In this document: positions 1,457 through 16,003 of the stretch, in pieces | Numbering within the stretch: the stretch's first letter is position 1 | Layout of the letters: every line of letters starts with the position of its first letter | Source of the DNA: Tolypothrix bouteillei VB521301 | GTDB lineage: Bacteria > Cyanobacteriota > Cyanobacteriia > Cyanobacteriales > Nostocaceae | Length of the DNA: 64,000 nt | Direction: 5' to 3' | Assembly: GCF_000760695.4 (NCBI RefSeq) | Contig: NZ_JHEG04000001.1 | Location: 5,276,204-5,340,203, forward strand | Made by a program: the position numbers and the translations under genes | Notes under the pieces: model-generated | What the model was told of the DNA's origin: nothing | Databases searched by the model: none | The model's input: the letters and a program-made list of their open reading frames with translations, nothing else

Positions 1457-2698
1457 ATGACCCTCGAAGAAATTGACCAGTTGCTAGCCGACTGGAAAGT
1501 GAAGATTGACATTATCGGTCAAAATCTTATTGATTTACACAGTCTTTCTACTTACCAGATCCTTGCTGGAGTTTCTGGATTTCCTAAAGCAAACCTCACA
1601 GGCGTTACCCAAACACGCGTCACTTCAGCATTAAGCGCAATGAACGATTTGTTTGGATATTTTGATTTAATTGTAAATGTCGTTAATAAAGCGAATCAAC
1701 TGCGTTCCTCAGTCTCTCGATTTTTGGTGTCGCCACAAAAACTGGAAGAAATAGAGAACATACTGACAGCACCGTCCATTGAATTGTCTGTTGTACAAAT
1801 TCCTCTAGCAGAAAGAAGTCTTTTAAGTGCTCCTGTGACAACTGACTCTATCGCCCCCCAAGAGTTACTGCGTCTGATGACAAATGCCTTTGATAATGCT
1901 AAAGAAGTTGTATTAGCTGTTGATTTAGCGTGGGCGCGTTTGGAACCCATGCTAACTCAAGCACAAGCAGAGATTGAGAAACTGCAAGCGCTAGCTGTTT
2001 CATTAGGTGTAGAGCCCTTGACAGAACTTTCCGCAGTGAGTCAAAAAATTCACTTGTTGCGTGGCTGCGTGGAAAGCGATCCTTTAGGAGTGACAGACGA
2101 TTTCACAAGAGATCTTCAACCACAAATCACACGGGTAAAAACGACTCTAGAACAATTAGCACAACAGCACCAGTTTCTCGCAGAGAGTTTTGCTCGCGCT
2201 CATCAGTTGCGATCGCAGTTAATCAAACTTCACCATCAAGCTGTAGAGGCTCATAAGGAAAGTACTTTAAAAGTTGTCGATCGTTCTGAAGTGCAAATTC
2301 CTTTGGAAGATAAGCAGATAGAAGCGCTTGTGTCTTGGCTGAGTACACTGGAAACTAAATTTGCTGAAGGACTGGTAAATCCAGTGCGTGTTGGTCTGGA
2401 AAATTGGATCGCCAAGGTGAAGGAATATATTGCAGTCACTGAAAAAGTCTATGCAGCAAACAGAGCACCTTTAGACATGAGATCTGAATTGCGCGGGCGG
2501 TTGGATGCACTTAAAGCCAAAGCACTAGCGCGGGGATTAGCAGAAGATACTATTTTGAATCAACTCGCTTTGCAGGCTCAGCAACTTTTATACTCCCGAC
2601 CAACACCTTTAGATGAAGCAGCCCAGTTAGTATCTCAATATGAAAAACACTTAAATAATGGGGTTAATAGGGTTATCAATTTCAAAAATTTGAGTTAG
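1457..2698 (+). CDS. Helical coiled-coil-like protein of unknown function
   Basis: A 413-residue soluble protein, almost entirely predicted helix, with long stretches of alternating hydrophobic and Glu/Gln/Lys/Ala residues (about 145-260 and 320-400) that suggest coiled coils. There is no signal peptide, membrane segment or enzymatic motif. It lies about 45 bp upstream of the PknG-type kinase on the same strand, so co-transcription is likely. I infer it is a scaffold or substrate of the kinase module, but the sequence gives no direct functional evidence. The ATG at 1457 follows the upstream palindromic repeats and has no strong ribosome-binding site. Confidence 0.7.
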   Translation: MTLEEIDQLLADWKVKIDIIGQNLIDLHSLSTYQILAGVSGFPKANLTGVTQTRVTSALSAMNDLFGYFDLIVNVVNKANQLRSSVSRFLVSPQKLEEIENILTAPSIELSVVQIPLAERSLLSAPVTTDSIAPQELLRLMTNAFDNAKEVVLAVDLAWARLEPMLTQAQAEIEKLQALAVSLGVEPLTELSAVSQKIHLLRGCVESDPLGVTDDFTRDLQPQITRVKTTLEQLAQQHQFLAESFARAHQLRSQLIKLHHQAVEAHKESTLKVVDRSEVQIPLEDKQIEALVSWLSTLETKFAEGLVNPVRVGLENWIAKVKEYIAVTEKVYAANRAPLDMRSELRGRLDALKAKALARGLAEDTILNQLALQAQQLLYSRPTPLDEAAQLVSQYEKHLNNGVNRVINFKNLS

Positions 2699-2741: not shown

Positions 2742-4931
2742 ATGAACGGCGAAAGTTGCAAACGCAACGGGTGTACTGGCAGTATTGAAGATGGATATTG
2801 TGATGTCTGTGGGCTTGCGCCAGTGGAGCCACTGCAATCCATATCTCTTCATGACAGCATTCGCAAACAAACACAGCCAACTCAGCACAGCTCAATTACA
2901 ACAGGAACGGGTTCATCGCCTCTGACCAACCGTTCCAAAGGTTCGCGGCGTACTAGCAATACCTCCAGTAGGAGCAGTCGCAAGCAGCTTGGTGCTGGAC
3001 TTGTCTCTGTACCCGAATTACCTTCAACGGAACCGGAAAAAGCAATCATGGCGGAAGCCATGGTTCCCGACCACAAACGCGTTTGCTCTCATTGCAATAA
3101 TTCTCTGCGAAGAGAGAAAGGCTTTTGCCCCAAGTGCGGACAAAAGTATTCTTTTATTGCGACTCTCAAACCGGGTGATGTGGTAGCCGGACAGTATGAG
3201 GTCAAAGGCGCAATCGCTTTTGGTGGTCTGGGTTGGATTTACTTGGGTTTTGACAAAATATTATCTCGTTATGTCGTACTGAAAGGGTTGCTAAATACTG
3301 AAGATGCAGCCAGTGCAGTTGTAGCAGTGGCTGAACGAAAGTTTTTGGCAGCTGTAAAACACGCCAACATTGTTGGTATTTATAACTTTGTCAACTATGA
3401 CAGTGAAGGCTTTATTGTCATGGAGTATGTTGGTGGCAAAACACTGAAGGAGATTCGCAAAGAAAGGGGACCGTTACCAGTTGCAGAAGCGATCGCCTAC
3501 ATCCATCGGATTTTAGGTGCTTTTGCGTATCTACATTCACTAGGTTTAGTCTACTGCGACTTTAAACCAGATAACGTGATGCTAGAAGGACACGATGTCA
3601 AGTTAATAGACTTAGGTGGTGTCCGTCGTATTGATGACATTCATGGAGACATTTACGGTACTGTTGGCTATAGTGCGCCAGAAGCGGGTGAAGGACCAAC
3701 AGTTGTGTCAGATTTATTTACCATTGGTAGGACACTTGCAGTTCTCCTCACCAGCATCTCGGGTTTCACAAAAGAACATCTCTACACTCTCCCCAGCCCT
3801 CAAGAAGAACCGCTCTTTGCCCAACAAGAATCGTTATATCGGTTTTTACTGAAAGCGACTGCACAGAACCCTGATGAGCGCTTTCAATCAGCAGATGAAA
3901 TGGCAGATCAATTGCTGGGCGTACTTCGAGAAGTTGTTGCAACCGAAACAAAGATTCCACGTCCAGCCTCCAGTAACGTTTTTGGGGGCGATATGCTTTC
4001 ACTGATAAACACGGGTGAGTTAAGCCCTATTAAAGCCGACCATCACCAGTTACCAATGCCAATGCTAGATTCTACGGAACCAGGATTCAACGCAGTCCTG
4101 AATGCGGGAGCGTTTGCCGATCCTAAAATGAGAGTCACTAGCTTAACACAAGCCGTTCAACAGTTCCCCAATTCAAAGGAACCATTGCTGCGTTTAGCAA
4201 ACAGCCTCATTGACACTGGTAATTATGACAAAGTTGAACAAGTGTTGGCGCAAGTAGAAGAAAAAGACCCTTGGGACTGGAGAGTGTTGTGGTACAAAGG
4301 ACGCAGTTTAATGGCGCAAGGCAAAGCACAAGAAGCGCAAGCAGCTTTTGACCAAGTTTACTTTGACTTACCCGGAGAACTTGCACCCAAATTGGGGTTA
4401 GCTTTAGCGGCTGAAAGTGCAGGTAATTTCCAGCTAGCAACTCACATGTACGATTTAGTCTCTCGTACCGACCCCAGTTATACCGCCGCCGCCTTTGGCT
4501 TAGCACGTTGCTTGTGCGCTACAGCAAACAGAAAAGAAGCAGTGTCGGCGTTAGAACGAGTTCCACAAACCTCCAACTTACATACACGGGCGCGAGTAGA
4601 AATTGCACGAACACTGATTGATGCGTCTCATTCTCCTCCAGGAAGCAAAGAACTCCAAGAAGCTTCAGCAGCAATTGAAGCACTAACTCTCAGTGGTATA
4701 GAACGCTGTCAACTGACAAAGCAAGTTTTAGAAACCGCTTTACATTTACTCACTTCTCAAGCAGTTTCACAAGACTTATCCATCAAAATTTTAGGACAAA
4801 CACTTCAAGAACTTTATTTACGAAAAGGATTAGAAAAAGCACTGCGAGACATGGCGCACCTCTCAACAGGAGAAGAAAAAATTCGCCTAGTTGATGAAGC
4901 AAATCGTGTACGACCGAGAACGTTATTTTAA
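2742..4931 (+). CDS. PknG-type serine/threonine kinase with zinc ribbons and TPR
   Basis: About 729 residues. An N-terminal zinc ribbon (Cys 6, 11, 20, 23) is followed by a low-complexity Ser/Thr/Arg linker, a second ribbon (CSHC...CPKC, about 115-132), a protein kinase domain (about 150-420) and C-terminal TPR-like repeats (about 470-729). The kinase has VVLKG (ATP-binding Lys about 181), the catalytic loop YCDFKPDN, which lacks the Arg of HRD as in PknG, and DLGG in place of DFG. Order and motifs match PknG, a soluble kinase coupled to amino-acid availability in mycobacteria. I chose ATG 2742 because GAGGAAAG sits six bases upstream; a GTG at 2718 is possible. Neighbours encode a phosphatase, a vWA and an FHA protein, its likely partners. 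Confidence 0.88.
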   Translation: MNGESCKRNGCTGSIEDGYCDVCGLAPVEPLQSISLHDSIRKQTQPTQHSSITTGTGSSPLTNRSKGSRRTSNTSSRSSRKQLGAGLVSVPELPSTEPEKAIMAEAMVPDHKRVCSHCNNSLRREKGFCPKCGQKYSFIATLKPGDVVAGQYEVKGAIAFGGLGWIYLGFDKILSRYVVLKGLLNTEDAASAVVAVAERKFLAAVKHANIVGIYNFVNYDSEGFIVMEYVGGKTLKEIRKERGPLPVAEAIAYIHRILGAFAYLHSLGLVYCDFKPDNVMLEGHDVKLIDLGGVRRIDDIHGDIYGTVGYSAPEAGEGPTVVSDLFTIGRTLAVLLTSISGFTKEHLYTLPSPQEEPLFAQQESLYRFLLKATAQNPDERFQSADEMADQLLGVLREVVATETKIPRPASSNVFGGDMLSLINTGELSPIKADHHQLPMPMLDSTEPGFNAVLNAGAFADPKMRVTSLTQAVQQFPNSKEPLLRLANSLIDTGNYDKVEQVLAQVEEKDPWDWRVLWYKGRSLMAQGKAQEAQAAFDQVYFDLPGELAPKLGLALAAESAGNFQLATHMYDLVSRTDPSYTAAAFGLARCLCATANRKEAVSALERVPQTSNLHTRARVEIARTLIDASHSPPGSKELQEASAAIEALTLSGIERCQLTKQVLETALHLLTSQAVSQDLSIKILGQTLQELYLRKGLEKALRDMAHLSTGEEKIRLVDEANRVRPRTLF

Positions 4932-4936
4932 AAAGA

Positions 4937-5088
4937 GCTAATGGCTAATGGAACACAATTAGCAATTAGCCATTAGCAGTTAGCAATTAGCCCTTCGGGT
5001 ATCTCCTTACGGAGACGCTTCGCGAACGCCAGTCCCCTACGGCGGGAAACCCGCCTTCAGGGCTGGACTCACCATTAGCCATTAACAA
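4937..5088. repeat. STRR heptamer array interrupted by palindromic element
   Basis: Degenerate TTAGCCA/TTAGCAA heptamers (4937-4991 and 5073-5086) flank a palindromic insert. The insert's core at 5027-5073 has the stem GGCGGG/CCCGCC around AAA and ends GGACTCACC. The same core occurs at 29611-29657 and, diverged, at 36685-36758. The arrangement suggests that the palindrome inserted into a pre-existing heptamer array between kinase and phosphatase genes. Confidence 0.75.
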
Positions 5089-5091
5089 ACT

Positions 5092-6027
5092 ATGCAATGT
5101 TTCAAATGTGGTAGCAAGCTCCAGGTTGGCGATCGCTTTTGTGAAGAATGCGGTACCCCCGCTATCCCAAAAGCGACAGGGGGATGTGAAAAATGCGGTG
5201 CTTCAGTCGAAGAAATCGATCCAGATGGCTTTTGTTCTCAATGTGGTTTTCGTCAGGAAATAAAGCCGACGGATAACTTTGAGATTGTGATTTCTCCTAA
5301 CTTTGCAGGAATTTCACACCGAGGACTAAAACATCAACGTAATGAAGATTATATTGCCTGTGCGAAGGTTGAAAATACGAATACTTATATTCTGGTTGTT
5401 TGTGATGGAGTTTCTAGTTCTGCTTCACCCGATTTAGCTGCTAAAGTTGCTGTAGAAAGTGCGTGTAGAGCTTTGGAAAGAAGGGTTGGAGGGGTAGATT
5501 CACAACAAGCAATAAAATTGGCAATTGCTGAAGCCATGAGAGCGGTATCCGAAATTTCATACAGTGTAACTACAGATGTCGATCCACCATCAACCACAAT
5601 AGTTGCTGCTGTTGTTGTTGACAATACAGCCACAATTGCTTGGTTGGGAGATAGCCGCGCCTACTGGATTGCTTCTGATGGTTCGCGACAGCTAACGATA
5701 GATCATTCCTGGTTTAATGATGTTGTTTTGTCAGGAGAAATGACCGAATCTGAAGCCAAACAATCTTCCCAGGTTCATGCTATTACTCGTTGGGTGGGTG
5801 CAGATGCGGGTCATGTTGAACCTTCTATTGTCAATTTTGAAATTCCTGGTTCCGGGTATCTACTTTTGTGTACTGATGGCTTATGGAATTACACACCTCA
5901 AGTTTCAGACTTAAACAGACTTATGAACTCAAATGAAGATGCTATTACACTAGCCCAGAAGCTAGTAGAGTTTGCTTGTTTGCGTGGAGGACATGACAAT
6001 ATTACCGTTGCTGTGTTGTCTTTTTAA
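5092..6027 (+). CDS. PP2C-family protein phosphatase with double zinc ribbon
   Basis: 311 residues. Four CxxC pairs in the first 52 residues form two zinc ribbons, followed by a PP2C domain (about 73-311). Visible PP2C motifs are RNEDY, VVCDGVSS, WLGDSRAYW, CTDGLWN and GGHDNITV, which supply the acidic metal-binding residues, so catalytic activity is likely. It should hydrolyse phospho-Ser/Thr and lies directly after the PknG-type kinase, making it the probable antagonist of that kinase. Zinc ribbons also occur in the kinase and the FHA protein; a shared docking role is an inference. No membrane segments. Confidence 0.9.
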   Translation: MQCFKCGSKLQVGDRFCEECGTPAIPKATGGCEKCGASVEEIDPDGFCSQCGFRQEIKPTDNFEIVISPNFAGISHRGLKHQRNEDYIACAKVENTNTYILVVCDGVSSSASPDLAAKVAVESACRALERRVGGVDSQQAIKLAIAEAMRAVSEISYSVTTDVDPPSTTIVAAVVVDNTATIAWLGDSRAYWIASDGSRQLTIDHSWFNDVVLSGEMTESEAKQSSQVHAITRWVGADAGHVEPSIVNFEIPGSGYLLLCTDGLWNYTPQVSDLNRLMNSNEDAITLAQKLVEFACLRGGHDNITVAVLSF

Positions 6028-6049
6028 CGTAAAAAGTGAAAGCTAATGT

Positions 6050-6553
6050 ATGGGAAGTGAGAAGATGACAGAAAGTAGCAATAGACCTGGAAAATCTGAG
6101 GCTGTTTTAGGAGGACAAACCTCATTTCCAACAGATGGTATTGTTCTGGGGGGAATTGAAGGTTTACAAAAACGTTTTGCTGGTGTGACTGGTGAAGAAA
6201 GAGCAGCTTATCTTGCTAATGCACTTCAGTATGAAGATACAGGCGTAGATTTTTTGATAGAAGCGATGAACGATGAAGAATTCATTGTAAGAGCAACAGC
6301 TTACAAACTCTTGCACAGTTCAAATTCTACCAAAGCTCAACAAGCCATTAACAACGGTATTCTTTTAAAAAAGGGAGATAAAGTTTACTGTGTTTACGAG
6401 TCAACGCTTAGTTACAATGATGAATTCTATTATATTGAATATTGCCTCGATTCATTTAACCCAGAAACTGAAGAATACTGTGAAGTTCATGGAGAAAAAA
6501 ATCCTTTATTTATTTCACGGCATCTTTTCAAGAAAATGCTGAATCTGAGGTAA
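6050..6553 (+). CDS. HEAT-like repeat protein
   Basis: 167 residues. The first third is a low-complexity linker, followed by a HEAT-like pair of helices (GIEGLQKRFAGVTGEERAAY, then ALQYEDTGVDFLIEAMNDEE and IVRATAYKLL) of the kind cyanobacteria attach to GUN4, pentapeptide and other regulatory proteins. The C-terminal third, rich in Tyr, Glu and Phe, is not recognised. It begins 22 bp after the phosphatase stop, so the two are probably co-transcribed. A second in-frame ATG at 6065, preceded by a GAGAAG stretch, is an alternative start. A protein-protein adaptor role is plausible but inferred. Confidence 0.72.
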   Translation: MGSEKMTESSNRPGKSEAVLGGQTSFPTDGIVLGGIEGLQKRFAGVTGEERAAYLANALQYEDTGVDFLIEAMNDEEFIVRATAYKLLHSSNSTKAQQAINNGILLKKGDKVYCVYESTLSYNDEFYYIEYCLDSFNPETEEYCEVHGEKNPLFISRHLFKKMLNLR

Positions 6554-6603
6554 TTACCGTACATCAAATAAAGATATTAAAAGTTAATATTTTTACACTT
6601 GTA

Positions 6604-6867
6604 TTGGGAAATTATCACATTACTTTTAATCCTTGGGATTGGTGTAAAAATAATGGAATTTCTTTAAAAACAAAATACAATGAAAATCATTGGGAATTTC
6701 AGAGGCGAGTTTTTCAAAAGCTACAGAAAGATAATAATTTAGAATTACTCAGTCAATTTTGGAATTTAATGGGATTTAGCCAAAAAATGGCGTTTTTTCG
6801 GGAGGAAGTTATTCAAGAAAATCAATATTTTGATTTTAGGGGAAATAATTTTAAGGAAGTTTTTTAA
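6604..6867 (+). CDS. Small conserved protein, paralogue of the one at window start
   Basis: Up to 87 residues (GNYHITFNPWDWCKNNGIS... ending NFKEVF). The last 37 residues align closely with the frame ending at 114. No ATG is available; TTG 6604 is the only sensible start codon close to the conserved part, and it lacks a clear ribosome-binding site, so the copy may have a different true start or be decaying. At the first copy a DUF692-like gene follows immediately; here the spacer holds a fragment of the GGAGCAT repeat element instead. No domain is recognised. Confidence 0.55.
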   Translation: MGNYHITFNPWDWCKNNGISLKTKYNENHWEFQRRVFQKLQKDNNLELLSQFWNLMGFSQKMAFFREEVIQENQYFDFRGNNFKEVF

Positions 6868-6887
6868 TATGAGAAAACTGAATCGTA

Positions 6888-6960
6888 GGGAGCATATTGT
6901 TTTGGTAAATTATCCACGGAATAGAATTCTATGGCTGTACAAACAAAGTCCACCTACACG
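6888..6960. mobile_element. Degenerate fragment of GGAGCAT repeat element
   Basis: Begins GGGAGCAT and contains GAATTCTAT, GGCTGTACAAACAAAGTCC and ACCTAC, which match in reverse complement the right part of the copy at 1101-1261. The second terminus is not recognisable. It lies directly downstream of the small protein gene, where the first copy of that gene is followed by the DUF692-like gene. Confidence 0.5.
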
Positions 6961-7038
6961 AAATTTATATTTGGAAAATTCAGAAAACCCAGACAATGTC
7001 TAAACTAGTCAAAAAATCAATTAAATAATAACAAAACT

Positions 7039-8316
7039 ATGACCACTCAATTTAAAGCTGAAGTATTTCAAAACCAATATTTACCCCAAGGGGCGAAAGA
7101 AGTTCATGCAATTATGACTGTTAGCTCTGAAGGTAGTGAAGGAGTCGCTGCACCATCTACGGGAAACAGAGTCTTTGGAATCATATGCGATACCTCTGGC
7201 TCAATGGGAGGTGATAAAATTCATGCAGTAAGAGAGGCGATGGTTAAAATCGTAAACTTACTTCCTGGAAATTCATATTTTTTCATTATCAGTGGTACGG
7301 ATGATGTTCGTATAACTGTTCCCATATTGAAAGCAACTTCTGAAAATAAAGAAAAAGCGATCGCAGCCATAAAAAAAGTCCGTGCTGATGGTGGTACTAT
7401 CATTTCTTCATGGCTCAATGAAGCTTTAAAACAATTCCAAAAAATGCCCCATGCTTTGCGTCAAGCACTGCTTCTAACGGATGGACAAAACGATGAATCA
7501 GACGAACAAAAACTCAGAGCGGTTCTCAATAAGTGTGAAGGCGTTTTTCAGTGTGATTGTCGGGGTGTGGGTACCACTTGGCGTGTTAAACAACTCCAAG
7601 AAATATCTGGAAAATTATTAGGGACTACGGACATTATCCCCAAAGCAGAAATGATTGAAGCTGACTTTCGGGCAATTTTAGAGAAAGCTATGAGCAAGAA
7701 CGTCAGTGACGTAGCTTTGCGTTTGTGGACTCCTCAAAGTGCCAAAATACTGTTCTGCAAGCAAGTCAGCCCCGACATTGTCGATTTAACCCACCGCGCA
7801 ACTGTTGTAAAACCTCAAGTTTGTGACTATCCAACTGGTGCTTGGAGCAATGGAGAGTCCCGCGATTACCACTTCTGCATTCAAGTACAACCGGGAAATG
7901 TAGGTGATGAGATGTTAGCAGGTAGAGCTAGTTTAATTTATACAGATAATGGCGTGGAAACAAAAATTGCTGAGGCTCGTATTCTAGCATTATGGACAGA
8001 CGATGATGCCAAATCTACCAAAATTGACAGACGTGTAGCTCATTATACCGGACAAGCAGAACTAGCCCAATCCATACAAGAGGGATTAGAAGCACGCGAT
8101 CGCGGAAATATTGAAGTAGCTACAGCCAAGCTAGGAAAAGCCGTACAACTCGCCCATGAATCGGGTAACGAAGCCACAGCCAAGCTTCTGAAAAAAGTCG
8201 TTGATATCGAAGATGCTGCAACAGGAACAGTGCGGTTAAAGCGAGAAGTTGCTAAAGAAGACACGATGATGTTGGAAACTCGCTCCACCAAAACAACTCG
8301 CATTCCCAAATCTTAA
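7039..8316 (+). CDS. vWA-domain (MIDAS) protein, TerY-like
   Basis: 425 residues. A von Willebrand factor A domain (about 44-215) carries a complete MIDAS: DTSGS at 51-55, Thr 120 in GGT and Asp 148 in LLTDG. A beta-rich segment follows (about 225-325), then a helical repeat-like region (about 335-395), and a tail ending TRSTKTTRIPKS with several threonines. Cytosolic MIDAS proteins of this sort accompany kinase and PP2C genes in TerY-type triads, where they are thought to organise the complex. The Thr-rich tail is a possible kinase target and FHA ligand (a Thr with Ile at +3 is present); that is inference. The FHA gene begins 23 bp downstream, so an operon is likely. Confidence 0.85.
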   Translation: MTTQFKAEVFQNQYLPQGAKEVHAIMTVSSEGSEGVAAPSTGNRVFGIICDTSGSMGGDKIHAVREAMVKIVNLLPGNSYFFIISGTDDVRITVPILKATSENKEKAIAAIKKVRADGGTIISSWLNEALKQFQKMPHALRQALLLTDGQNDESDEQKLRAVLNKCEGVFQCDCRGVGTTWRVKQLQEISGKLLGTTDIIPKAEMIEADFRAILEKAMSKNVSDVALRLWTPQSAKILFCKQVSPDIVDLTHRATVVKPQVCDYPTGAWSNGESRDYHFCIQVQPGNVGDEMLAGRASLIYTDNGVETKIAEARILALWTDDDAKSTKIDRRVAHYTGQAELAQSIQEGLEARDRGNIEVATAKLGKAVQLAHESGNEATAKLLKKVVDIEDAATGTVRLKREVAKEDTMMLETRSTKTTRIPKS

Positions 8317-8339
8317 GAGAGAAAAATTTTAAACCCACC

Positions 8340-9056
8340 ATGTCCACCTATCAATGTCCAAAAGGACACGCTTCAACCGAATCAGATTATTGTTCGGACT
8401 GCGGTACTAAAATTCTCGGAATAACCCAAAGCGCAGTCACGGTAATAACTCCAAAACAGGAGGTACTTCAAACAACACCACCTGCGATCGCCTTTGGCTC
8501 AAGCCATACCCGGCTTATCGCTTGTCCCGATTGCACAGCCCCACACGACCCCAGTAGCGGTAACTTCTGCGAGATTTGCGGTTATAACTTTATAACCAAA
8601 GCTCATGGAGAAATACCAATAGCAGCAACAACAAATTTGACCAAAGAAGTTACAGATGATGTACCTGCAAAACCCATAGAACAACCATCCGCTTCAACAT
8701 CCGGTGCTGAAATTACCGCCACTATCGATCCCTCATTGCAAAGCCCAGAAAGCCCAGCACCACCAAACCAACCCCCCATAACCTACCAGCTAGACAAAGA
8801 CAGCAATCTCATTGGTCGTTCCAGCGAGCTTCGGGGAGTTTACCCAGAAATAGCCCTTGATTTTGATAGCGCCGTTTCCCACCGCCATGCACTCCTCAAT
8901 CGCAATCCCGATGGCACATTTATCTTGCGCGACATTGGTTCCACCAATGGTACCAAATTAAACGGCGTAGAAATCAACCCAATGGTAGATGTACCGATAA
9001 AAGATGGTGATGAAATCACCCTCGGACACTGGACTCGAATTAAGTTTAGGGGGTAG
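8340..9056 (+). CDS. Zinc-ribbon FHA-domain protein
   Basis: 238 residues. Two zinc-ribbon-like segments (CPKGH...CSDC, about 6-21, and CPDC...CEIC, about 62-80) are followed by a Pro/Ser/Thr-rich linker (about 90-148) and a C-terminal FHA domain (about 150-238). The FHA domain has the canonical phosphothreonine-binding residues: Arg 160 in IGRS, Ser 180 and His 183 in SHRH, and GSTNGT at 200-205. It is a reader of phospho-Thr and lies with the kinase, phosphatase and vWA genes. By analogy with mycobacterial GarA, an FHA protein regulated by PknG, it may be a kinase output. Thr residues in the linker could be its own phosphosites (inferred). Confidence 0.88.
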   Translation: MSTYQCPKGHASTESDYCSDCGTKILGITQSAVTVITPKQEVLQTTPPAIAFGSSHTRLIACPDCTAPHDPSSGNFCEICGYNFITKAHGEIPIAATTNLTKEVTDDVPAKPIEQPSASTSGAEITATIDPSLQSPESPAPPNQPPITYQLDKDSNLIGRSSELRGVYPEIALDFDSAVSHRHALLNRNPDGTFILRDIGSTNGTKLNGVEINPMVDVPIKDGDEITLGHWTRIKFRG

Positions 9057-9060
9057 GGGA

Positions 9061-9165
9061 ATGGGGACAAGGAGGACAAGGTAGACAAGGTAGAAGTTTC
9101 TCCCCAGTCTACCCCCTTCTCCCCGGTCTACCCCCTTCTCCCCGGTCTACCCCCTCTCCCTCTAC
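9061..9165. repeat. GGACAAGG / CTCCCC-type tandem repeat in spacer
   Basis: GGACAAGG-type repeats (9065-9092) are followed by three 19-bp units TTCTCCCC(A/G)GTCTACCCCC at 9098, 9117 and 9136. GTAGAC in the left part pairs with GTCTAC in the right, so a long imperfect stem is possible. The same composite repeat, reverse-complemented, lies inside the coding frame of the M48-like gene at about 55215-55320, and a fragment follows the XRE gene near 60208. Confidence 0.8.
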
Positions 9166-9171
9166 AGTTTT

Positions 9172-10545
9172 ATGACAAGCACGACACCCTCCTTCAGCCA
9201 AAAAATCAAACTCACCACGCCCCGACTTCTAAAAACAGGTTTGTACGCCACTTGGGTAACCAGTTTCTTAGTTGCGATCGCCACCATTTCTGGTATTCAA
9301 CAACAGCGCCAAATGATTCAAACAATTGGTAAAGACGCAGCACCAAGCGTCCTTCTCGCCCAGAGGATTCAAGATAGCTTACTGGGTATGGATGCTAATG
9401 CTGTTAACGAACTGCTTGTCAAGCCTGGGGCTAACCCTCGTGCTACTGAATATTACGAAGAAAGGCGCAAAGCTTTCGCCGAACGAATAATTGCTGCTGC
9501 TGAGAACATTACTTATGGCAAAGCAGAACGCGAACCTATTAAGACGATGCAACTGTTGCTGGGGGATTATATAGCCAAAATTCAACGAGCAAGAGACTTT
9601 AACGAACGTGGGGATTTAAACGGGGTACTAACGGCTTATCGAGAAGCAGCAGAAATTATGGATAACAAGCTGCTACCAGAAGCCGAAAAACTAAAAAAGG
9701 TAAACGCAAAAAAACTTGATGAAACTTACGACCTGCAACAAATTGCATCCTTTTACTTTCTATTCCTGACAATCGTTCCCGCGCTACTTCTCGTTAGCGT
9801 ACTTATAGCAATTCAACTGTTTCTGCACTGGAGAATGCGACGCATTCTCAATCCCTGGCTGATCGCCGCAACAGCGATCGCAATTTTCTTTTTAGTGCAT
9901 ACAACCCAAACATTTCTCGCAATCTCCCACCATCTAAAGATTGCCACAAAAGATTCTTTTGAATCGCTGCGCTTACTGAGAGAAGCCCGTGCTTTGGTTT
10001 ACAGTAGTAATGCTGATGAAAGCCGCTATTTGTTAGATAAAGCAAATGCTGTCAAACATGAGAAGGCATTTTTGAGCAAATCAACTATAATTGCTCAGCC
10101 GTTACATGGTGAGACGTTGGAGACAGTTGCAGTTGCAGGGTTCTTAGCAAACAATCAAAAGCCTCGTTTAGCCGGTTTATTAGGCGAGGCTTTTAACGAT
10201 ATCACATTTGCTGGTGAGAGAGAAGCAGCTGTGGCGACTTTGTTAACTTTCGATCGCTATCTCAAAATCGATCGCCAAATACGCCTGTTAGAACAAAGTG
10301 GAAAACACCAAGAAGCGATCGCTTTGTGTACGGGTTATGAGAAAGGTCAGTCAAACTGGGCGTTTGAGGAATTCAAGAAAGCCCACAATAAAATGCAAGA
10401 TATCAACCAAGAAGCTTTCAACAAAGCAGTTGAGCAGGGGTTCAAGGATATAGAAGGCTTTGAAATTTCCGCTGCTGTTGCAGCCATCCTTATCTCAGTT
10501 TTGACACTTTTTGGATTGCTACTACGTATACAAGAATATCGGTAA
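9172..10545 (+). CDS. Four-helix membrane sensor, GlnX-like topology
   Basis: 457 residues with four hydrophobic helices at about 22-41, 192-217, 228-250 and 431-452. They enclose two mostly helical loops (about 42-190 and 251-430) predicted to lie outside the cytoplasm. Two external helical domains in a four-helix protein of this length match GlnX, the membrane partner of PknG in mycobacteria, which receives a signal from the binding protein GlnH. The position at the end of a PknG-type kinase cluster supports this, but I rely on topology and context, not sequence identity. No GlnH-like binding protein follows. A chemoreceptor-like sensor of another origin is the alternative. Confidence 0.6.
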   Translation: MTSTTPSFSQKIKLTTPRLLKTGLYATWVTSFLVAIATISGIQQQRQMIQTIGKDAAPSVLLAQRIQDSLLGMDANAVNELLVKPGANPRATEYYEERRKAFAERIIAAAENITYGKAEREPIKTMQLLLGDYIAKIQRARDFNERGDLNGVLTAYREAAEIMDNKLLPEAEKLKKVNAKKLDETYDLQQIASFYFLFLTIVPALLLVSVLIAIQLFLHWRMRRILNPWLIAATAIAIFFLVHTTQTFLAISHHLKIATKDSFESLRLLREARALVYSSNADESRYLLDKANAVKHEKAFLSKSTIIAQPLHGETLETVAVAGFLANNQKPRLAGLLGEAFNDITFAGEREAAVATLLTFDRYLKIDRQIRLLEQSGKHQEAIALCTGYEKGQSNWAFEEFKKAHNKMQDINQEAFNKAVEQGFKDIEGFEISAAVAAILISVLTLFGLLLRIQEYR

Positions 10546-10664: not shown

Positions 10665-11843
10665 TTGAGTTATCATCTTGATGCTATTGCCCCCCACGGC
10701 GGACAGTTAGTGAATCGCATCGCTACACCCGAACAAAGGCAAGAATTTCTCTCGAAAGCTGACTTTTTACCGCGAGTACAACTGGATGAACGGGCGGTTT
10801 CCGATCTCCAGATGATAGCGATTGGTGGTTTTAGTCCACTCACTGGTTTTATGAACCAGGAGGATTACGATCGCGTTGTTACAGAAATGCGGTTAGCTAA
10901 CGGTAATGTTTGGGCAATTCCCGTAACCCTATCAGTAGAAGAAGAAGTCGCAAACTCCTTGAAAGAAGGTGGATTAATTCGCTTGGATAATCCCGCAGGT
11001 GAGTTTATTGGTGTGTTAGAACTCACACAGAAGTACCGCTACGATAAGAGCCGCGAAGCGATTAACGTTTACCGTACCGACGATTCCAAACATCCTGGCG
11101 TACAGGTGTTATACAATCAAGGACCAATACACCTTGCGGGTGATGTTTGGTTGCTGCAACGCGATCCCCATCCTTTCTTCCCAAACTATCAAATCGATCC
11201 CGCAACGTCGCGACAAATGTTTAGGGAAAAGGGTTGGAAAACTATTGTTGGCTTCCAAACTCGCAATCCCATCCACCGCGCTCACGAGTACATTCAAAAG
11301 TGCGCTCTGGAAATCGTAGATGGTTTGTTTTTGCACCCCTTAGTGGGTGCAACAAAAGAAGACGATATCCCAGCTGATGTGCGGATGCGATGCTATGAAA
11401 TTTTGCTGGATGGATACTACCCTAAAGACAGGGTCATTCTGGCAATTAATCCCTCAGCAATGCGCTATGCTGGTCCTAGAGAAGCAATTTTCCATGCCTT
11501 AATTCGCAAAAACTATGGCTGCACTCACTTTATTGTGGGTCGCGATCATGCTGGAGTAGGAAACTACTACGGAACTTATGATGCTCAATACATTTTTGAT
11601 GAGTTTCAACCAGCAGAATTGGGCATTGTACCGATGAAGTTTGAACACGCTTTCTACTGCACGCGCACTCAGCAAATGGCGACAAGTAAAACAAGTCCAA
11701 GTAGCCCTGAAGAGCGCATTCACTTATCGGGAACAAAAGTGAGGGAAATGCTGCGTCGCGGAGAGTTACCCCCACCAGAATTTTCTCGTCCAGAAGTGGC
11801 TGCAGAATTGGCAAGAGCAATGCGAGTGCCATTACCAGTCTAA
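10665..11843 (+). CDS. sat: Sulfate adenylyltransferase (ATP sulfurylase)
   Basis: 392 residues, the usual length of the monofunctional bacterial/plant-type enzyme without APS kinase. It makes adenylyl sulfate from ATP and sulfate, the first step of sulfate assimilation in the cytosol. The active-site motif [10 protein letters not shown] and the later GRDHAGVGN are intact, and the N-terminus [11 protein letters not shown] is typical of cyanobacterial Sat. The start is TTG at 10665, supported by GAAGG eight bases upstream and by the conserved N-terminus. The gene stands alone, 119 bp after the membrane sensor gene, and is probably transcribed separately. Confidence 0.96.
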
Positions 11844-11999: not shown

Positions 12000-14207
12000 A
12001 TGAAGCGGCGGACGTTTTTACAAAGGTTTGGCTCCATACTCGCGGTAATGGGTGTCACTGACAACGAGTGGTTGACCTTGGGAAACCGCTATTCTCAAGC
12101 TTTGGCACAACCAAAACAGCGCAAGTTGGCGTTATTGGTAGGCATTAATCAGTACCCACAATTTTCATCACCACTGACGGGTTGTTTGACAGATGTAGAA
12201 CTACAAAAGGAACTGTTGATTCACCGCTTTGGTTTTCAACCGTCAGATGTTCTTTGCTTGACGGACGCTAAAGCAACTAGGGAAGATATTGAACTCGCTT
12301 TTTCAGAACATATTATCAAGCAAGTTCAGCCCGATGATGCGGTTGTATTTCACTTTAGCGGTTATGGCAGTCGCGTTCATCTCGAAAGTTCTCAAGATAC
12401 CCTGCAAAACGCTCTGATTCCCGTTCAGGAAAAAGATGAGAGTACACAAGATAATAAAAATGTAAACTATATATTAGAGGAAACATTGCTGTTATTAGTG
12501 CGATCGCTACCCACGCATCGTGCAACAGCAGTTTTGGATACTAGTTACTATGTTCCCCAAACATCGCTACCTACGGGGTTAAAAACTCGCAGCCGTCCGG
12601 TTCTAGAGGATGCTGTTGTGATAGCAAAGGAACTTCAGTTACACAAACAACTGAAGGAGAAGGTTCCTACGCCTTCCTCTGGGGTTGTACTGAAAGCAAC
12701 CTCTCATTCCAAACAAGTAGCACGAGAGATACAATTATCTGGATTTAGTGCGGGATTATTTACATACGCCCTCACGCAGTATCTATGGGAAACTACCCCA
12801 GCGACAACAGTTCAAGTTTGCATCTCTCATGTGGTAGGTTCTTTACAGCAGATGGGTAGTACCAAACAGCAACCTGCAATACTAGCTGAGAAAACGGATA
12901 AAAATAATCCACAAGCACGTGCATTTGTTACCAATCATTTTCTTCCCGATTCAAACTTAGGGGCGGAAGGAGTGATAATGGGAATTGAAGAAGATGGGAA
13001 AACTCTTCATCTGTGGTTGGGAGGCTTACCCTTAAACGTATTGGAGTACTTGGGATCTAATTCTCGCCTCACTCTCGTTCCATCGACACCCAACTCCCAA
13101 ATCGTACTGCGATCGCGCTCTGCACTAACAGCAAAAGCGCAAATTGTCAATACTGAGAGCGAACCAAAAGTCGGACAACTCATTCAAGAAGCAGTGCGGG
13201 TATTACCTAAGAATGTTGGTTTAACAGTTGCTCTTGACACCAAACTCGAAAGAATAGAAAGAGTCGATGCGACAAGCGCGTTTTCAACAGTATCTCGCGT
13301 TTCTACTGTGGTAGCAGGAGAACAACTCGCTGACTGCGTGTTTGGAAAACTCCCAGAATCAAAGAGTAAAGAACCAGCCCCAACTAACCTAACAGTAGTT
13401 TCTCTCAGCCGCTATGGTTTATTCTCTCCAGGTAGCGAACAGATTCCCAGTACCTTTGGGGAAGCAGGAGAAGCCGTAAAATTAGCAGCCTTACGGTTAG
13501 TGCCAAAACTGCAAACCCTACTAGCGGCAAAACTATGGCGACTCACCGTAAATGAGGGTTCATCACTATTGGGTGTGAAAGCAACATTGGAGATGCTTGG
13601 CGCTTTAGCACCGCGAACGTTAATGCAACGAGAAACCTTGCGAACTCAAAATACAGAAGCATCCAGTAAAAAGACATTTAGCCCTGAAACTGGGGATATA
13701 CCTACTGTGACCATTGGTAACAGGATACAATATAGGGTGGAAAACACAAGCGATCGCCCAGTGTATTTAATGCTGTTGGGACTTAGTAGTAGTAAAACAG
13801 CGATCGCGTTATTTCCATGGTATAAAGTGGCTGAAACCGAAGTGTCAGAAGGTCAACCACATCTCGTAGATTTAGTGATTCCGCCTGGAGAAACCCGCGT
13901 TTTCCCGCAAACTACTTCCGGTTTTGAATGGGTCGTACAAGCACCCGCATCTTTAGCTGAAACCCAACTTATTTTTAGTACTGCACCCTTTACTCAAACT
14001 CTAGCTGCTCTAGAAACTGACAAAAACCCGAAAGCAGAACAGCAACGCATTCAGCCTACTATGAACCCTCTAGAAGTTGCACAAGCTTTGCTGCAAGATT
14101 TGCACAATGCCAGTGCAGTCAGCGATATGAATGGTACAGCTTCTGATTCTTATGTACTGGATGTCAATCATTGGGCAAGTTTCAGTTTCGTTTATCAAGT
14201 GGTTTAG
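12000..14207 (+). CDS. Pseudo-orthocaspase (Tyr/Ser variant), Tat-exported
   Basis: 735 residues. The N-terminus MKRRTFLQRFGSILAV is a twin-arginine signal. A caspase-fold p20-like domain (about 40-310) follows: LALLVGINQY, then HFSGYGS at 118-124 and AVLDTSYY at 177-184. In active orthocaspases these read SGHG and DxCH, so the catalytic His is Tyr 122 and the Cys is Ser 182. Such Y-S pseudo-orthocaspases are a known cyanobacterial class without expected protease activity. The C-terminal third contains a DUF4384-like domain (YRVENTSDRPVYLML, ALFPW, PPGETRVF). It probably acts outside the cytoplasmic membrane as a scaffold or regulator (inferred). No operon partners. Confidence 0.88.
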   Translation: MKRRTFLQRFGSILAVMGVTDNEWLTLGNRYSQALAQPKQRKLALLVGINQYPQFSSPLTGCLTDVELQKELLIHRFGFQPSDVLCLTDAKATREDIELAFSEHIIKQVQPDDAVVFHFSGYGSRVHLESSQDTLQNALIPVQEKDESTQDNKNVNYILEETLLLLVRSLPTHRATAVLDTSYYVPQTSLPTGLKTRSRPVLEDAVVIAKELQLHKQLKEKVPTPSSGVVLKATSHSKQVAREIQLSGFSAGLFTYALTQYLWETTPATTVQVCISHVVGSLQQMGSTKQQPAILAEKTDKNNPQARAFVTNHFLPDSNLGAEGVIMGIEEDGKTLHLWLGGLPLNVLEYLGSNSRLTLVPSTPNSQIVLRSRSALTAKAQIVNTESEPKVGQLIQEAVRVLPKNVGLTVALDTKLERIERVDATSAFSTVSRVSTVVAGEQLADCVFGKLPESKSKEPAPTNLTVVSLSRYGLFSPGSEQIPSTFGEAGEAVKLAALRLVPKLQTLLAAKLWRLTVNEGSSLLGVKATLEMLGALAPRTLMQRETLRTQNTEASSKKTFSPETGDIPTVTIGNRIQYRVENTSDRPVYLMLLGLSSSKTAIALFPWYKVAETEVSEGQPHLVDLVIPPGETRVFPQTTSGFEWVVQAPASLAETQLIFSTAPFTQTLAALETDKNPKAEQQRIQPTMNPLEVAQALLQDLHNASAVSDMNGTASDSYVLDVNHWASFSFVYQVV

Positions 14208-14332: not shown

Positions 14333-15766
14333 TCAAATACCTGCTACTTTTTTTTCACGCTTATATGGTCGTCGCCAAGATGAAACTTTAAGAGTGTCAT
14401 AGGTATAGCCATACTTTTTGTAATTTAAAGTATCAGCCGGTGTAACAATATCATCTGAAGAAAAACTAGGCAGTAGAGATAATAAATCTCCAGGACCCCA
14501 GTTAGCAGGAGTTGATTCGCCTCCATCCCATGGCCACAATCGGTCATTGAGATTTTCTCCGTATTTGTTACCAGAGGCAGGATAGTAAGCGCTACCCGCA
14601 TGACCTTTTTCTTGCCACTCAGCCCAAAGGCGATCGACGTTGGAATGAATCAGCCAAAATACCGGATCGTTGATAGAACCAGCAAGGTCAGCCATTGTGC
14701 CTAGAGGATCGGGACGACCTACAGCAGGGTCAAACGTAGCTCCACCAACAAAGCTATGGAAATAGTTATGTTGAAAAACTCCGGGCGTTGGTTGTCCTGT
14801 AGAACTGGGTTTAATAAAACCTTCTAAAGCTTGGCGAAAAGTTTTATAGTCGTTAATGGGAAAGAGCTGCTCTACATCTTCTTGAGGAACGGGGTAATTG
14901 TTTGTGGGAGGAACTTGTAAAAACCGCAAGATTGTGTTGCCAAATGTTTCTCCTGATGGTTTAAAGTGCAAGTCTGGATTTAAAACCCATCCGCTTGCTA
15001 GAGAGAAAGGTCCAGATACAACTGGTCCCCCTTGCACCTCTACCAAATTTGGCACGCCAGAACCCGAATCTGAACCGTTTGGTTGTGTCGAGCCATCAGA
15101 TGCGCCATTGGCAGAACCGTTTGAAGATGTAGGTGAACCTCCTGAAGCATTCCCTAAATCTAGAGGTATGCTGAGCGTTACCCCTTGACCGTTCGGTCCC
15201 ATAAAGTCATCTTGAAAGATAACTGATAATGCTTGAGCATTTGTCCAATCCCAGTAAGGAAGCGTTACATCGGGGTTTACCGATTGCAAAGCTTGTTCAA
15301 ATCTGTGTATAAACTCGCGATGCCAGGGTAAGAAGAGGTCACTTTCATGAGCACCGTCATGTCCGGCTGCAGGACCTCGAGCACCGTCAAACATTAAACC
15401 CATGGCTGCAACATGCACTGCGACAAATTGGTCGTAGATACTTAGCTGACTACCTTCTGGAAAGGTATGCTTTAGTGTCTGTAGGGCATTGACAAATGCA
15501 TGTTTCTCTTCTGAAGTCAAATCAACAACGTTCTTTCTCACTTTTTGAGTGACTGCCTGCGTGTGAGCAAGATGAAGACTGTCGGAATATATGCTAGCAG
15601 AACTATTCTGCTTAACATCAAGTGCTGCGAGTGTCTTATTGATACTCACGTGCTCGTGCTTGTGGGGCTCTGCATTATAAGAAATTGCTGGGGTTCCAAA
15701 TACGATCGTAACTGCAACCAGCCCAGAAAGAATAAGTGTTCTGATAGTTTTGCGAGAGATTTTCAT
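14333..15766 (-). CDS. Secreted tyrosinase-family copper oxidase
   Basis: About 477 residues. Starting at ATG 15766 gives a classical signal peptide (MKISRKTIRTLILSGLVAVT, cleavage near residue 30); a TTG ten codons upstream would add residues before it and is less likely. Copper-site motifs are present: CuA with FLPWHREFIHRFE and an upstream His-rich segment, CuB with HNYFHSF and DPVFWLIHSNVDRLWAEW. The family oxidises phenols to quinones with a type-3 dicopper centre. Between the two sites is a Gly/Ser/Asn-rich insertion (GNASGGSPTSSNGSANG... region), unusual for the family and probably a flexible loop. It stands alone, convergent with the caspase-like gene. Confidence 0.9.
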   Translation of the reverse strand: MKISRKTIRTLILSGLVAVTIVFGTPAISYNAEPHKHEHVSINKTLAALDVKQNSSASIYSDSLHLAHTQAVTQKVRKNVVDLTSEEKHAFVNALQTLKHTFPEGSQLSIYDQFVAVHVAAMGLMFDGARGPAAGHDGAHESDLFLPWHREFIHRFEQALQSVNPDVTLPYWDWTNAQALSVIFQDDFMGPNGQGVTLSIPLDLGNASGGSPTSSNGSANGASDGSTQPNGSDSGSGVPNLVEVQGGPVVSGPFSLASGWVLNPDLHFKPSGETFGNTILRFLQVPPTNNYPVPQEDVEQLFPINDYKTFRQALEGFIKPSSTGQPTPGVFQHNYFHSFVGGATFDPAVGRPDPLGTMADLAGSINDPVFWLIHSNVDRLWAEWQEKGHAGSAYYPASGNKYGENLNDRLWPWDGGESTPANWGPGDLLSLLPSFSSDDIVTPADTLNYKKYGYTYDTLKVSSWRRPYKREKKVAGI

Positions 15767-16003
15767 AGTCTGTACGCGATGTTTGTCAAACTCCAAGACT
15801 TTTGAGAGACTTAGAAAAGAACAGCAGGGAATAAGTATATAAATTTACACATTACAGACTTGTCTACAATAGAAAATCTTTAGCAAAACCCTTCTATTCT
15901 TTAGCAAGTAAGGTAAAAGCGAGCGTTGACCGTACTCTGGTTTTTCAGCAAAGAAGGAATAAAAAATTACCACCGACCGGGGATTTCTGATTGTGGATCG
16001 CTG

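Follow-up and report, generated by a model that had tools for sequence, protein, structure and literature searches.

Do the signalling genes that lie side by side in a stretch of cyanobacterial DNA work together, and if so, as what? The stretch (hereafter the window) comprises 64,000 nucleotides of contig NZ_JHEG04000001.1 of Tolypothrix bouteillei VB521301, part of a 9.95-Mb genome, and the genes at issue are located between positions 1457 and 10545 on the plus strand. An earlier note on this DNA had named six genes on one strand, for a PknG-type kinase, a PP2C phosphatase, a HEAT-like protein, a vWA protein, an FHA protein and a GlnX-like membrane protein; all six are found on the plus strand. 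Among bacterial Ser/Thr kinases PknG has received much study. The kinase, PP2C, vWA, FHA and GlnX genes, together with the gene for a 413-residue protein (U413), are a conserved unit which recurs in several bacterial groups. We read this cluster as a self-contained membrane-to-cytoplasm phospho-signalling module, of which the mycobacterial and corynebacterial set would be a reduced form, and put the probability of this reading at roughly 60%. What the sequence itself shows is the protein families, the conserved catalytic and phospho-binding residues, the co-occurrence and common order of the genes, and their near-contiguity in Acidobacteriia. Published work is cited below by PMC number, for the excerpts drawn on.

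Conservation of the gene cluster

Relatives were collected by way of GlnX, the search for which gave 265 matches among 7999 scored candidates; 40 relatives were aligned from at least 120 listed. The resulting set of 61 related loci, with one genome scanned per species, carries the labels Cyanobacteria, Acidobacteriia (including Granulicella), Armatimonadota, and metagenome-assembled genomes (MAGs) of Clostridium, a delta-proteobacterium and Labilithrix. Partner genes were detected with profiles of the window genes and their matches against all open frames 60 residues or longer. Many of the loci are truncated at contig ends, and a subset of 42, in which 8 kb or more lie upstream of glnX, is reported alongside. 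Start codons of the relatives were chosen by script near the profile start, which affects both gap sizes and the comparison of starts.

Across all 61 loci FHA is present at 53, vWA at 48, PP2C at 45, PknG at 41 and U413 at 38, with all five at 36; the corresponding numbers for the 42 longer loci are 38, 38, 36, 35, 33 and 32. The linkage goes beyond chance, because 224 of 226 partner genes share the strand of glnX. The order U413-PknG-PP2C-vWA-FHA-GlnX is exact in 31/61 loci. Among the reordered sets are PP2C-vWA-FHA-GlnX-U413-PknG (L058, L060), U413 behind GlnX on the opposite strand (L076, L090), and vWA-FHA-GlnX-U413-PknG-PP2C (L092 and genome G035). Partners in other phyla are 20-65% identical to the window proteins, with the order conserved, and in four of the five acidobacterial loci measured neighbouring genes overlap or are separated by no more than 22 bases (gaps in the fifth, L089, reach 66 bases). 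G035, a distantly related member of the window's phylum, has two copies of the cluster (L128, L129), arranged as in the Clostridium-labelled MAG; the second contig shows four of the six genes.

The composition of the unit thus departs from the list in the earlier note, which had proposed checking cyanobacterial genomes for co-occurrence of its six genes. In the related loci such co-occurrence holds for the kinase, PP2C, vWA, FHA and GlnX genes. The HEAT-like gene has no counterpart at any of the 61 loci and was rejected as a member, as was an 87-residue open reading frame (ORF) for which a single weak match (24 bits) was obtained across the same loci; the U413 gene (1457-2698) had been overlooked. 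The note had further seen a cyanobacterial locus merging two arrangements, that of mycobacterial PknG and that of the TerY triads. It is not such a merger, because Nonomuraea and the Acidobacteriia carry the same set: the same six genes occur in the latter, and in Nonomuraea gerenzanensis (L114) U413, PknG, PP2C, vWA, FHA and GlnX stand in the window's order and are followed by an amino-acid-type binding protein named GlnH.

In a survey of 292 genomes from the window's phylum, the window genome included, PknG_rubred, VWA_3_C and U413 were each detected in five, and these were the identical five genomes every time. GlnX was matched in 22 at E 0.001 and scored at least 200 bits only in those five (four over the curated cut-off; G035 with 220 and 201); the 17 further matches, partial and at most 31.6 bits, were not counted as GlnX. 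Other phyla were sampled around one set-bearing genome each. PknG_rubred exceeded its cut-off in 1/247 genomes of the Granulicella-centred sample and in 1/269 of that centred on the Clostridium-labelled MAG (7 and 4, respectively, at E 0.001), and VWA_3_C was found in 1/255 around the Labilithrix-labelled MAG, the one genome being the centre in each case. Among the 292 and 255 genomes sampled, VWA_3_C is accordingly confined to those that bear the set, and the vWA protein is its sole match in the window genome. A vWA protein alone is no marker, because the broader family is large, with 7848 matches at E 1e-20 in 8000 scored candidates.

Six Chamaesiphon loci contain glnX without partners, two of them on contigs with less than 0.5 kb upstream. 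In all five Chamaesiphon genomes tested, PknG_TPR, VWA_3_C and U413 are nevertheless present, on contigs other than that of glnX, and PP2C, vWA and FHA are still together in four. In G293 vWA stands alone on a 6-kb contig, at the end on the FHA side, with no PP2C on its other side. The set is retained though unlinked, and this is therefore good evidence of joint function.

Distances between the proteins were compared for 15 pairs over 37 loci (L096, L082, L085 and L061 being left out) and gave r of 0.88-0.97, none of 500 permutations being as high for any pair; over 30 cyanobacterial loci r was 0.74-0.95. A quick tree of 48 PknG rows gave no sign of a recent transfer of the acidobacterial set from within the cyanobacteria, but its branch joining the 38 cyanobacterial rows has a support of only 44, and G035 groups with the Clostridium-labelled MAG.

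The gene products and their conserved residues

The features of the window are collected in Table 1. Conserved columns are those at least 93% identical; PknG and U413 of L061, L037 and L085 were left out of these alignments (the PknG of L085, though complete, was dropped as well), and L082, whose sequence is cut, was left out of the count of GlnX tails.

Table 1. Location of the cluster genes, their domains and motifs in the window
Feature	Position	Strand	Basis
U413, 413-residue protein, first gene of the conserved module	1457-2698	+	Conserved C-terminal ELRGRLDALKAKA region
PknG-type Ser/Thr kinase (N-terminal zinc ribbon, rubredoxin domain, kinase, TPR)	2742-4931 (ATG 2742)	+	
Extra N-terminal zinc ribbon of PknG (C6-x4-C11...C20-x2-C23)	2757-2810	+	Cys pattern in 41/41 rows, conserved columns
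Ser/Thr-rich linker TTGTGSSPLTNR of PknG, candidate autophosphorylation/FHA docking site	2898-2933	+	Analogy with an excerpt of PMC8546545
Rubredoxin domain of PknG	2973-3164	+	PF16919 over cut-off
Kinase domain of PknG (Pfam span)	3195-3779	+	PF00069
PknG_TPR domain	4044-4922	+	PF16918, 226.8 bits
PP2C phosphatase, N-terminal double zinc ribbon	5092-6027	+	PF13672, PF12773
HEAT-like ORF between PP2C and vWA, outside the conserved set	6050-6553	+	HEAT_2, 16 bits, below cut-off of 27.7
87-residue ORF between PP2C and vWA, unconserved	6604-6867	+	
vWA protein (VWA_3 and VWA_3_C)	7039-8316	+	VWA_3 56.1 bits, VWA_3_C 78.9 bits
C-terminal Thr motif of vWA, T417-K-T419-T-R421, candidate phosphosite	8287-8301	+	
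FHA protein, N-terminal zinc ribbons	8340-9056	+	PF00498 FHA, 58.4 bits
GlnX-family membrane protein, four hydrophobic segments with two long regions between	9172-10545	+	NF058618, hydropathy
C-terminal tail of GlnX, RIQEYR (consensus RxxE[YF]), candidate peptide for docking on the PknG TPR	10525-10542	+	

The assignment of the kinase to the PknG type stands. PknG_rubred (56.3 bits, cut-off 28.5), Pkinase (107.2 bits) and PknG_TPR (cut-off 27) occur in a single protein, each over its cut-off, and residues 90-737, numbered from a GTG at 2718, align to the solved structure of M. tuberculosis PknG (2pzi) with an E value of 5.9e-130. The position of the ATG at 2742 is likewise a start codon in the relatives. 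K181, D273, N278, D290 and eight Cys residues fall in conserved columns (41 rows), and the Cys spacing of the rubredoxin domain is kept in 38/41. In the Ser/Thr-rich linker, 40/41 rows have Ser or Thr at position 54 and 40/41 at position 56, the exact motif T-x-GTGS occurring in 26/41. Hydropathy revealed no hydrophobic segment of transmembrane type in the window PknG.

The PP2C protein retains the motifs GD[ST]R and DN[IV] in 48/48 rows and CDGVS in 45/48, with D105, D187, D262, D302 and N303 conserved. For the FHA protein the conserved columns (56 rows) include R160, S180, H183 and N203, and the Cys pairs of the kinase, PP2C and FHA proteins also lie in conserved columns. Residues of the metal ion-dependent adhesion site (MIDAS) are preserved in the vWA protein (D51, S53, S55, T120 and D148 in conserved columns; D-x-SGS in 50/51 rows). 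The roles of these residues we take to be those familiar from their families. Writer, eraser and reader all look active, because their catalytic, phospho-binding and Cys columns are conserved. At the C-terminus of the vWA protein, T419 is found in 51/51 and T417 in 50/51 rows, with TxTxR within the last 20 residues in 50/51.

U413 of the window has no match in Pfam or NCBIfam, and an alignment of 24 relatives gave only scattered, weak coiled-coil-like matches (best E 0.0025). Of 8000 scored candidates, 312 are related to it at E 0.001. We regard U413 as a probable scaffold.

GlnX belongs to a membrane protein family that is already recognised in NCBI's family model. The profile check proposed for the protein encoded at 9172 bore out its GlnX-like character: NF058618 ("GlnX family signal transduction membrane protein") gave 280.6 bits against a cut-off of 250, while the narrower equivalog model for a protein kinase G-activating GlnX (NF041460) gave 56.8 bits against 780. 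Four hydrophobic segments are present (24-42, 196-214, 225-243 and 432-450), and a simple threshold finds four segments in 38/64 rows, three in 21, two in three and five in two. For the orientation in the membrane we follow the topology published for GlnX (PMC9769921). All 63 rows with a complete C-terminus have RxxE[YF] in the tail, 62 of them RxxEY and 55 R[LI]xEY, and the Nocardia GlnX has it too (RLREY). Among nine regions of the protein, mean conservation is highest in this tail (0.80), followed by the loop between segments 2 and 3 (0.75), the others ranging from 0.49 to 0.64. Plasmids of Embleya and Streptomyces (L188, L189, L190) also carry glnX, with tails PRLAEY or PRLAEF.

The wider intergenic gaps of the window contain repeats; in that between FHA and GlnX (9098-9155), three 20-nucleotide copies with 19-nucleotide spacing are found (TTCTCCCC[AG]GTCTACCCCCT). 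Neither promoter-like sites (13, compared with 15.6 in shuffles) nor terminator-like sites (10, compared with 9.7) are enriched. Downstream of the cluster the window encodes an ATP sulfurylase (10665-11843) and then a caspase-domain protein (12000-14207, plus strand; Peptidase_C14 72 bits, DUF4384), followed on the minus strand by a tyrosinase-domain protein (14333-15796, 141 bits). In close relatives ATP sulfurylase genes flank the cluster at 6 loci. The flanks offered no conserved neighbour from which the output of the module could be named. Most of the 18 widest flanking clusters turned out to be antisense frames that overlie the six genes; the remainder are genes of close relatives, namely those for ATP sulfurylase and the caspase-domain protein, or scattered generic families, each named by one member (PAS/histidine-kinase at 13 loci, ABC-transporter at 12, radical-SAM at 7).

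A proposed mechanism and the competing readings

Autophosphorylation of PknG recruits its FHA substrate and an action of GlnX on the TPR domain has been proposed (PMC8546545, PMC9769921, PMC6069109). In the cluster considered here, GlnX would sense a periplasmic or envelope signal through its two long loops, dock on the PknG TPR by its cytoplasmic loop and by the RxxE[YF] tail at its C-terminus, and switch the kinase. We propose the tail as a docking peptide because the role of PknG needs the TPR domain and the termini of GlnX have been likened to TPR ligands (PMC6069109, PMC8546545). PknG may then autophosphorylate its Ser/Thr-rich linker, so recruiting the FHA protein, and phosphorylate the FHA protein, the vWA protein or both, with the conserved Thr motif at the vWA C-terminus as the likeliest site. 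The phospho-Thr would be read by the FHA protein, the MIDAS vWA protein would pass the output to a client, and the module's own PP2C would reset the switch.

The published operon of M. tuberculosis, M. smegmatis and C. glutamicum consists of pknG, glnX and glnH (PMC6069109), and in Nocardia farcinica (L115) we find GlnX, GlnH and PknG with the other four absent within 18 kb. From gene content we infer that this short mycobacterial and corynebacterial operon may be a reduced form of the larger module. A more far-reaching version is tentative, and we would sooner doubt it than adopt it: that PknG-GlnX-GlnH is the stripped-down remainder of an ancient module with seven parts (U413, PknG, PP2C, vWA, FHA, GlnX, GlnH) common to Actinomycetota, Cyanobacteria, Acidobacteriota and others. 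It would be wired by binding of the GlnX RxxE[YF] peptide to the PknG TPR and by a C-terminal TRSTKTTRI phosphopeptide of the vWA protein, which PknG writes, FHA reads and PP2C erases, and GlnX would sense without GlnH outside the Actinomycetota.

Several observations weigh against the cluster being one self-contained module. The median gaps over all loci, 42-190 bases, are wide for an operon. Among the 42 longer loci, U413 is absent nearby in L039 and L093 and PP2C in L054, L044 has only vWA-FHA-GlnX, L070 and L083 are without PknG or U413, and four Chamaesiphon loci carry glnX alone. The Armatimonadota MAG has no PknG_TPR, VWA_3_C or U413 match, and in the delta-proteobacterial MAG, where PP2C, vWA, FHA and U413 are together, PknG_TPR scores 24 bits, below its cut-off. 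No match to PknG, PP2C, vWA, FHA or U413 was detected in the stretches fetched around the glnX genes of L188, L189 and L190. The survey of 292 genomes is not independent of the 61 loci, three of its five positive genomes sharing contigs with L047, L054 and L068, and high distance correlations are expected for any co-inherited genes. The GlnX tail adjoins a membrane helix, and its conservation could serve insertion or topology; that of the vWA tail may belong to the VWA_3_C fold instead of marking a phosphosite. The reduction of the short operon is judged from few loci: one full-set actinomycete (Nonomuraea), one short-set Nocardia locus and the published operons.

An input of amino acids or nitrogen had been suggested in the earlier note, and the cluster could be the PknG amino-acid/nitrogen circuit itself, in which GlnX reports amino acids and PknG steers 2-oxoglutarate/glutamate metabolism by way of the FHA protein, as with GarA/OdhI in Actinobacteria. 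The PknG and GlnX of the window have their homologues in the actinobacterial pair, for which a GlnH-GlnX-PknG-OdhI function is published (PMC9769921, PMC6069109); in C. glutamicum, a defect of glnX in growth on glutamine has been reported (PMC9769921). The amino-acid-type binding protein encoded after glnX in Nonomuraea has an N-terminus that, judged by eye, resembles a lipoprotein signal, and on a plasmid of Nocardia sp. NBC_00511 (L116, 1-10100) a PknG-like gene adjoins an amino-acid permease gene near one for NAD-glutamate dehydrogenase. However, neither the window nor the non-actinobacterial loci compared yielded a match in tblastn with the Nonomuraea GlnH (E 1e-3), a search by which an unlinked GlnH is not excluded. 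The FHA protein was rejected as a GarA/OdhI: it scores 29.2 bits with the OdhI model against a cut-off of 200, the ETTS motif occurs in 0/56 rows, and in the PDB its matches to GarA/OdhI chains, at 18.8-22.7 bits, do not stand out from those to other FHA proteins (up to 35.2). Nor do the flanking proteins point to nitrogen or to any other common area of metabolism: 20 of the 58 listed were scanned, from 12 loci, and one of these is a pyridoxal-phosphate enzyme of the PALP family. The suggested input was not borne out by these comparisons, and we regard the circuit as an unlikely account of the cluster.

It is improbable, though less so than the two explanations that follow, that the genes form a TerY-P-like phospho-switch for stress or defence to which GlnX merely supplies a membrane input. 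The combination of kinase, PP2C, vWA and zinc ribbon is the TerY-P layout (PMC11090510), kinase-PP2C-vWA genes are also found beside GAP1-N2 GTPases (PMC7159879), and a caspase-domain gene lies downstream of the cluster in the window and at 5/61 loci; but that gene is confined to close relatives, and TerY-P kinases carry their zinc ribbon C-terminally, where the window kinase has its TPR, its own ribbons being N-terminal. Of the PADLOC models, those for kinases and PP2C match (135.8 and 44.6 bits at best), with a few weak matches for FHA and U413 and none for vWA or GlnX. We give very little credence to a cluster working like the threonine phosphorylation pathway of type VI secretion systems (T6SS; PpkA-PppA-Fha with TagQRST) and triggering an envelope machine. 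That pathway has the same logic of membrane input, kinase, PP2C and FHA protein (PMC12133291), and PpkA has a C-terminal vWA domain (PMC1262709), but PpkA is membrane-bound, whereas PknG has a TPR and the window protein, as noted above, no membrane segment; no T6SS family occurs in the 20 flanking proteins, the rest of the genome not having been searched for T6SS. Chance neighbourhood, or a recent hitch-hiking block without joint function, is refuted in the main and scarcely credible: the set is as rare (5/292 genomes) as a mobile block would be, yet its order persists in other phyla at the identities given above, rearranged variants remain complete, and Chamaesiphon keeps the set unlinked.

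If the cluster is the phospho-signalling module that we favour, it bears on how PknG is controlled. The action of GlnX on PknG has been called "still elusive" (PMC9769921), and the cross-phylum comparison singles out two parts of GlnX as the candidate contact, a tail of five residues and a short loop on the cytoplasmic side. The larger unit adds a dedicated phosphatase and a vWA partner, both missing from the published three-gene operon, and includes in U413 a conserved protein of no known family. The picture of its origin changes as well: the excerpted literature treats the pknG-glnX-glnH linkage as actinobacterial, and here the GlnX-PknG linkage crosses phyla.

Comparison with known systems

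No description of this cluster was found in the open literature searched, most subscription papers lying outside its scope. The T6SS threonine phosphorylation pathway, comprising PpkA, PppA, Fha1 and TagQRST (PMC12133291), resembles it in having a writer, an eraser, an FHA protein and a membrane input, but differs in the type of kinase and in the sensor, and no secretion genes are among the flanking proteins scanned. The kinase-PP2C-vWA genes that accompany GAP1-N2 GTPase systems (PMC7159879) are similar in that a kinase, often with a zinc ribbon, stands beside a PP2C and a standalone vWA protein; in the present cluster GlnX, FHA and U413 are added, and the flanking proteins scanned include no GTPase. 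The TerY-P triad likewise encodes kinase, PP2C and vWA together (PMC11090510) and has a zinc ribbon on its kinase. By its published description it is set apart from the window cluster, whose kinase is of the PknG type with an N-terminal zinc ribbon and TPR, and which includes an FHA reader and GlnX.

Homologues of PknG with a rubredoxin domain have been reported in Ktedonobacter and Calothrix (PMC8546545). The Calothrix protein is, like that of the window, a cyanobacterial PknG with rubredoxin; the excerpts of that paper mention no adjoining GlnX, PP2C, vWA or FHA genes. The closest comparison is with the PknG-GlnX-GlnH system with GarA/OdhI of Corynebacterium and Mycobacterium, which shares a homologous kinase with rubredoxin and TPR (the C. 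glutamicum PknG is without the rubredoxin domain; PMC8546545), a GlnX-family protein and an FHA protein as presumed substrate. Unlike that system, the window cluster is without a nearby GlnH match, and it has in addition PP2C, vWA, a zinc-ribbon FHA protein, U413 and the extra N-terminal zinc ribbon of PknG.

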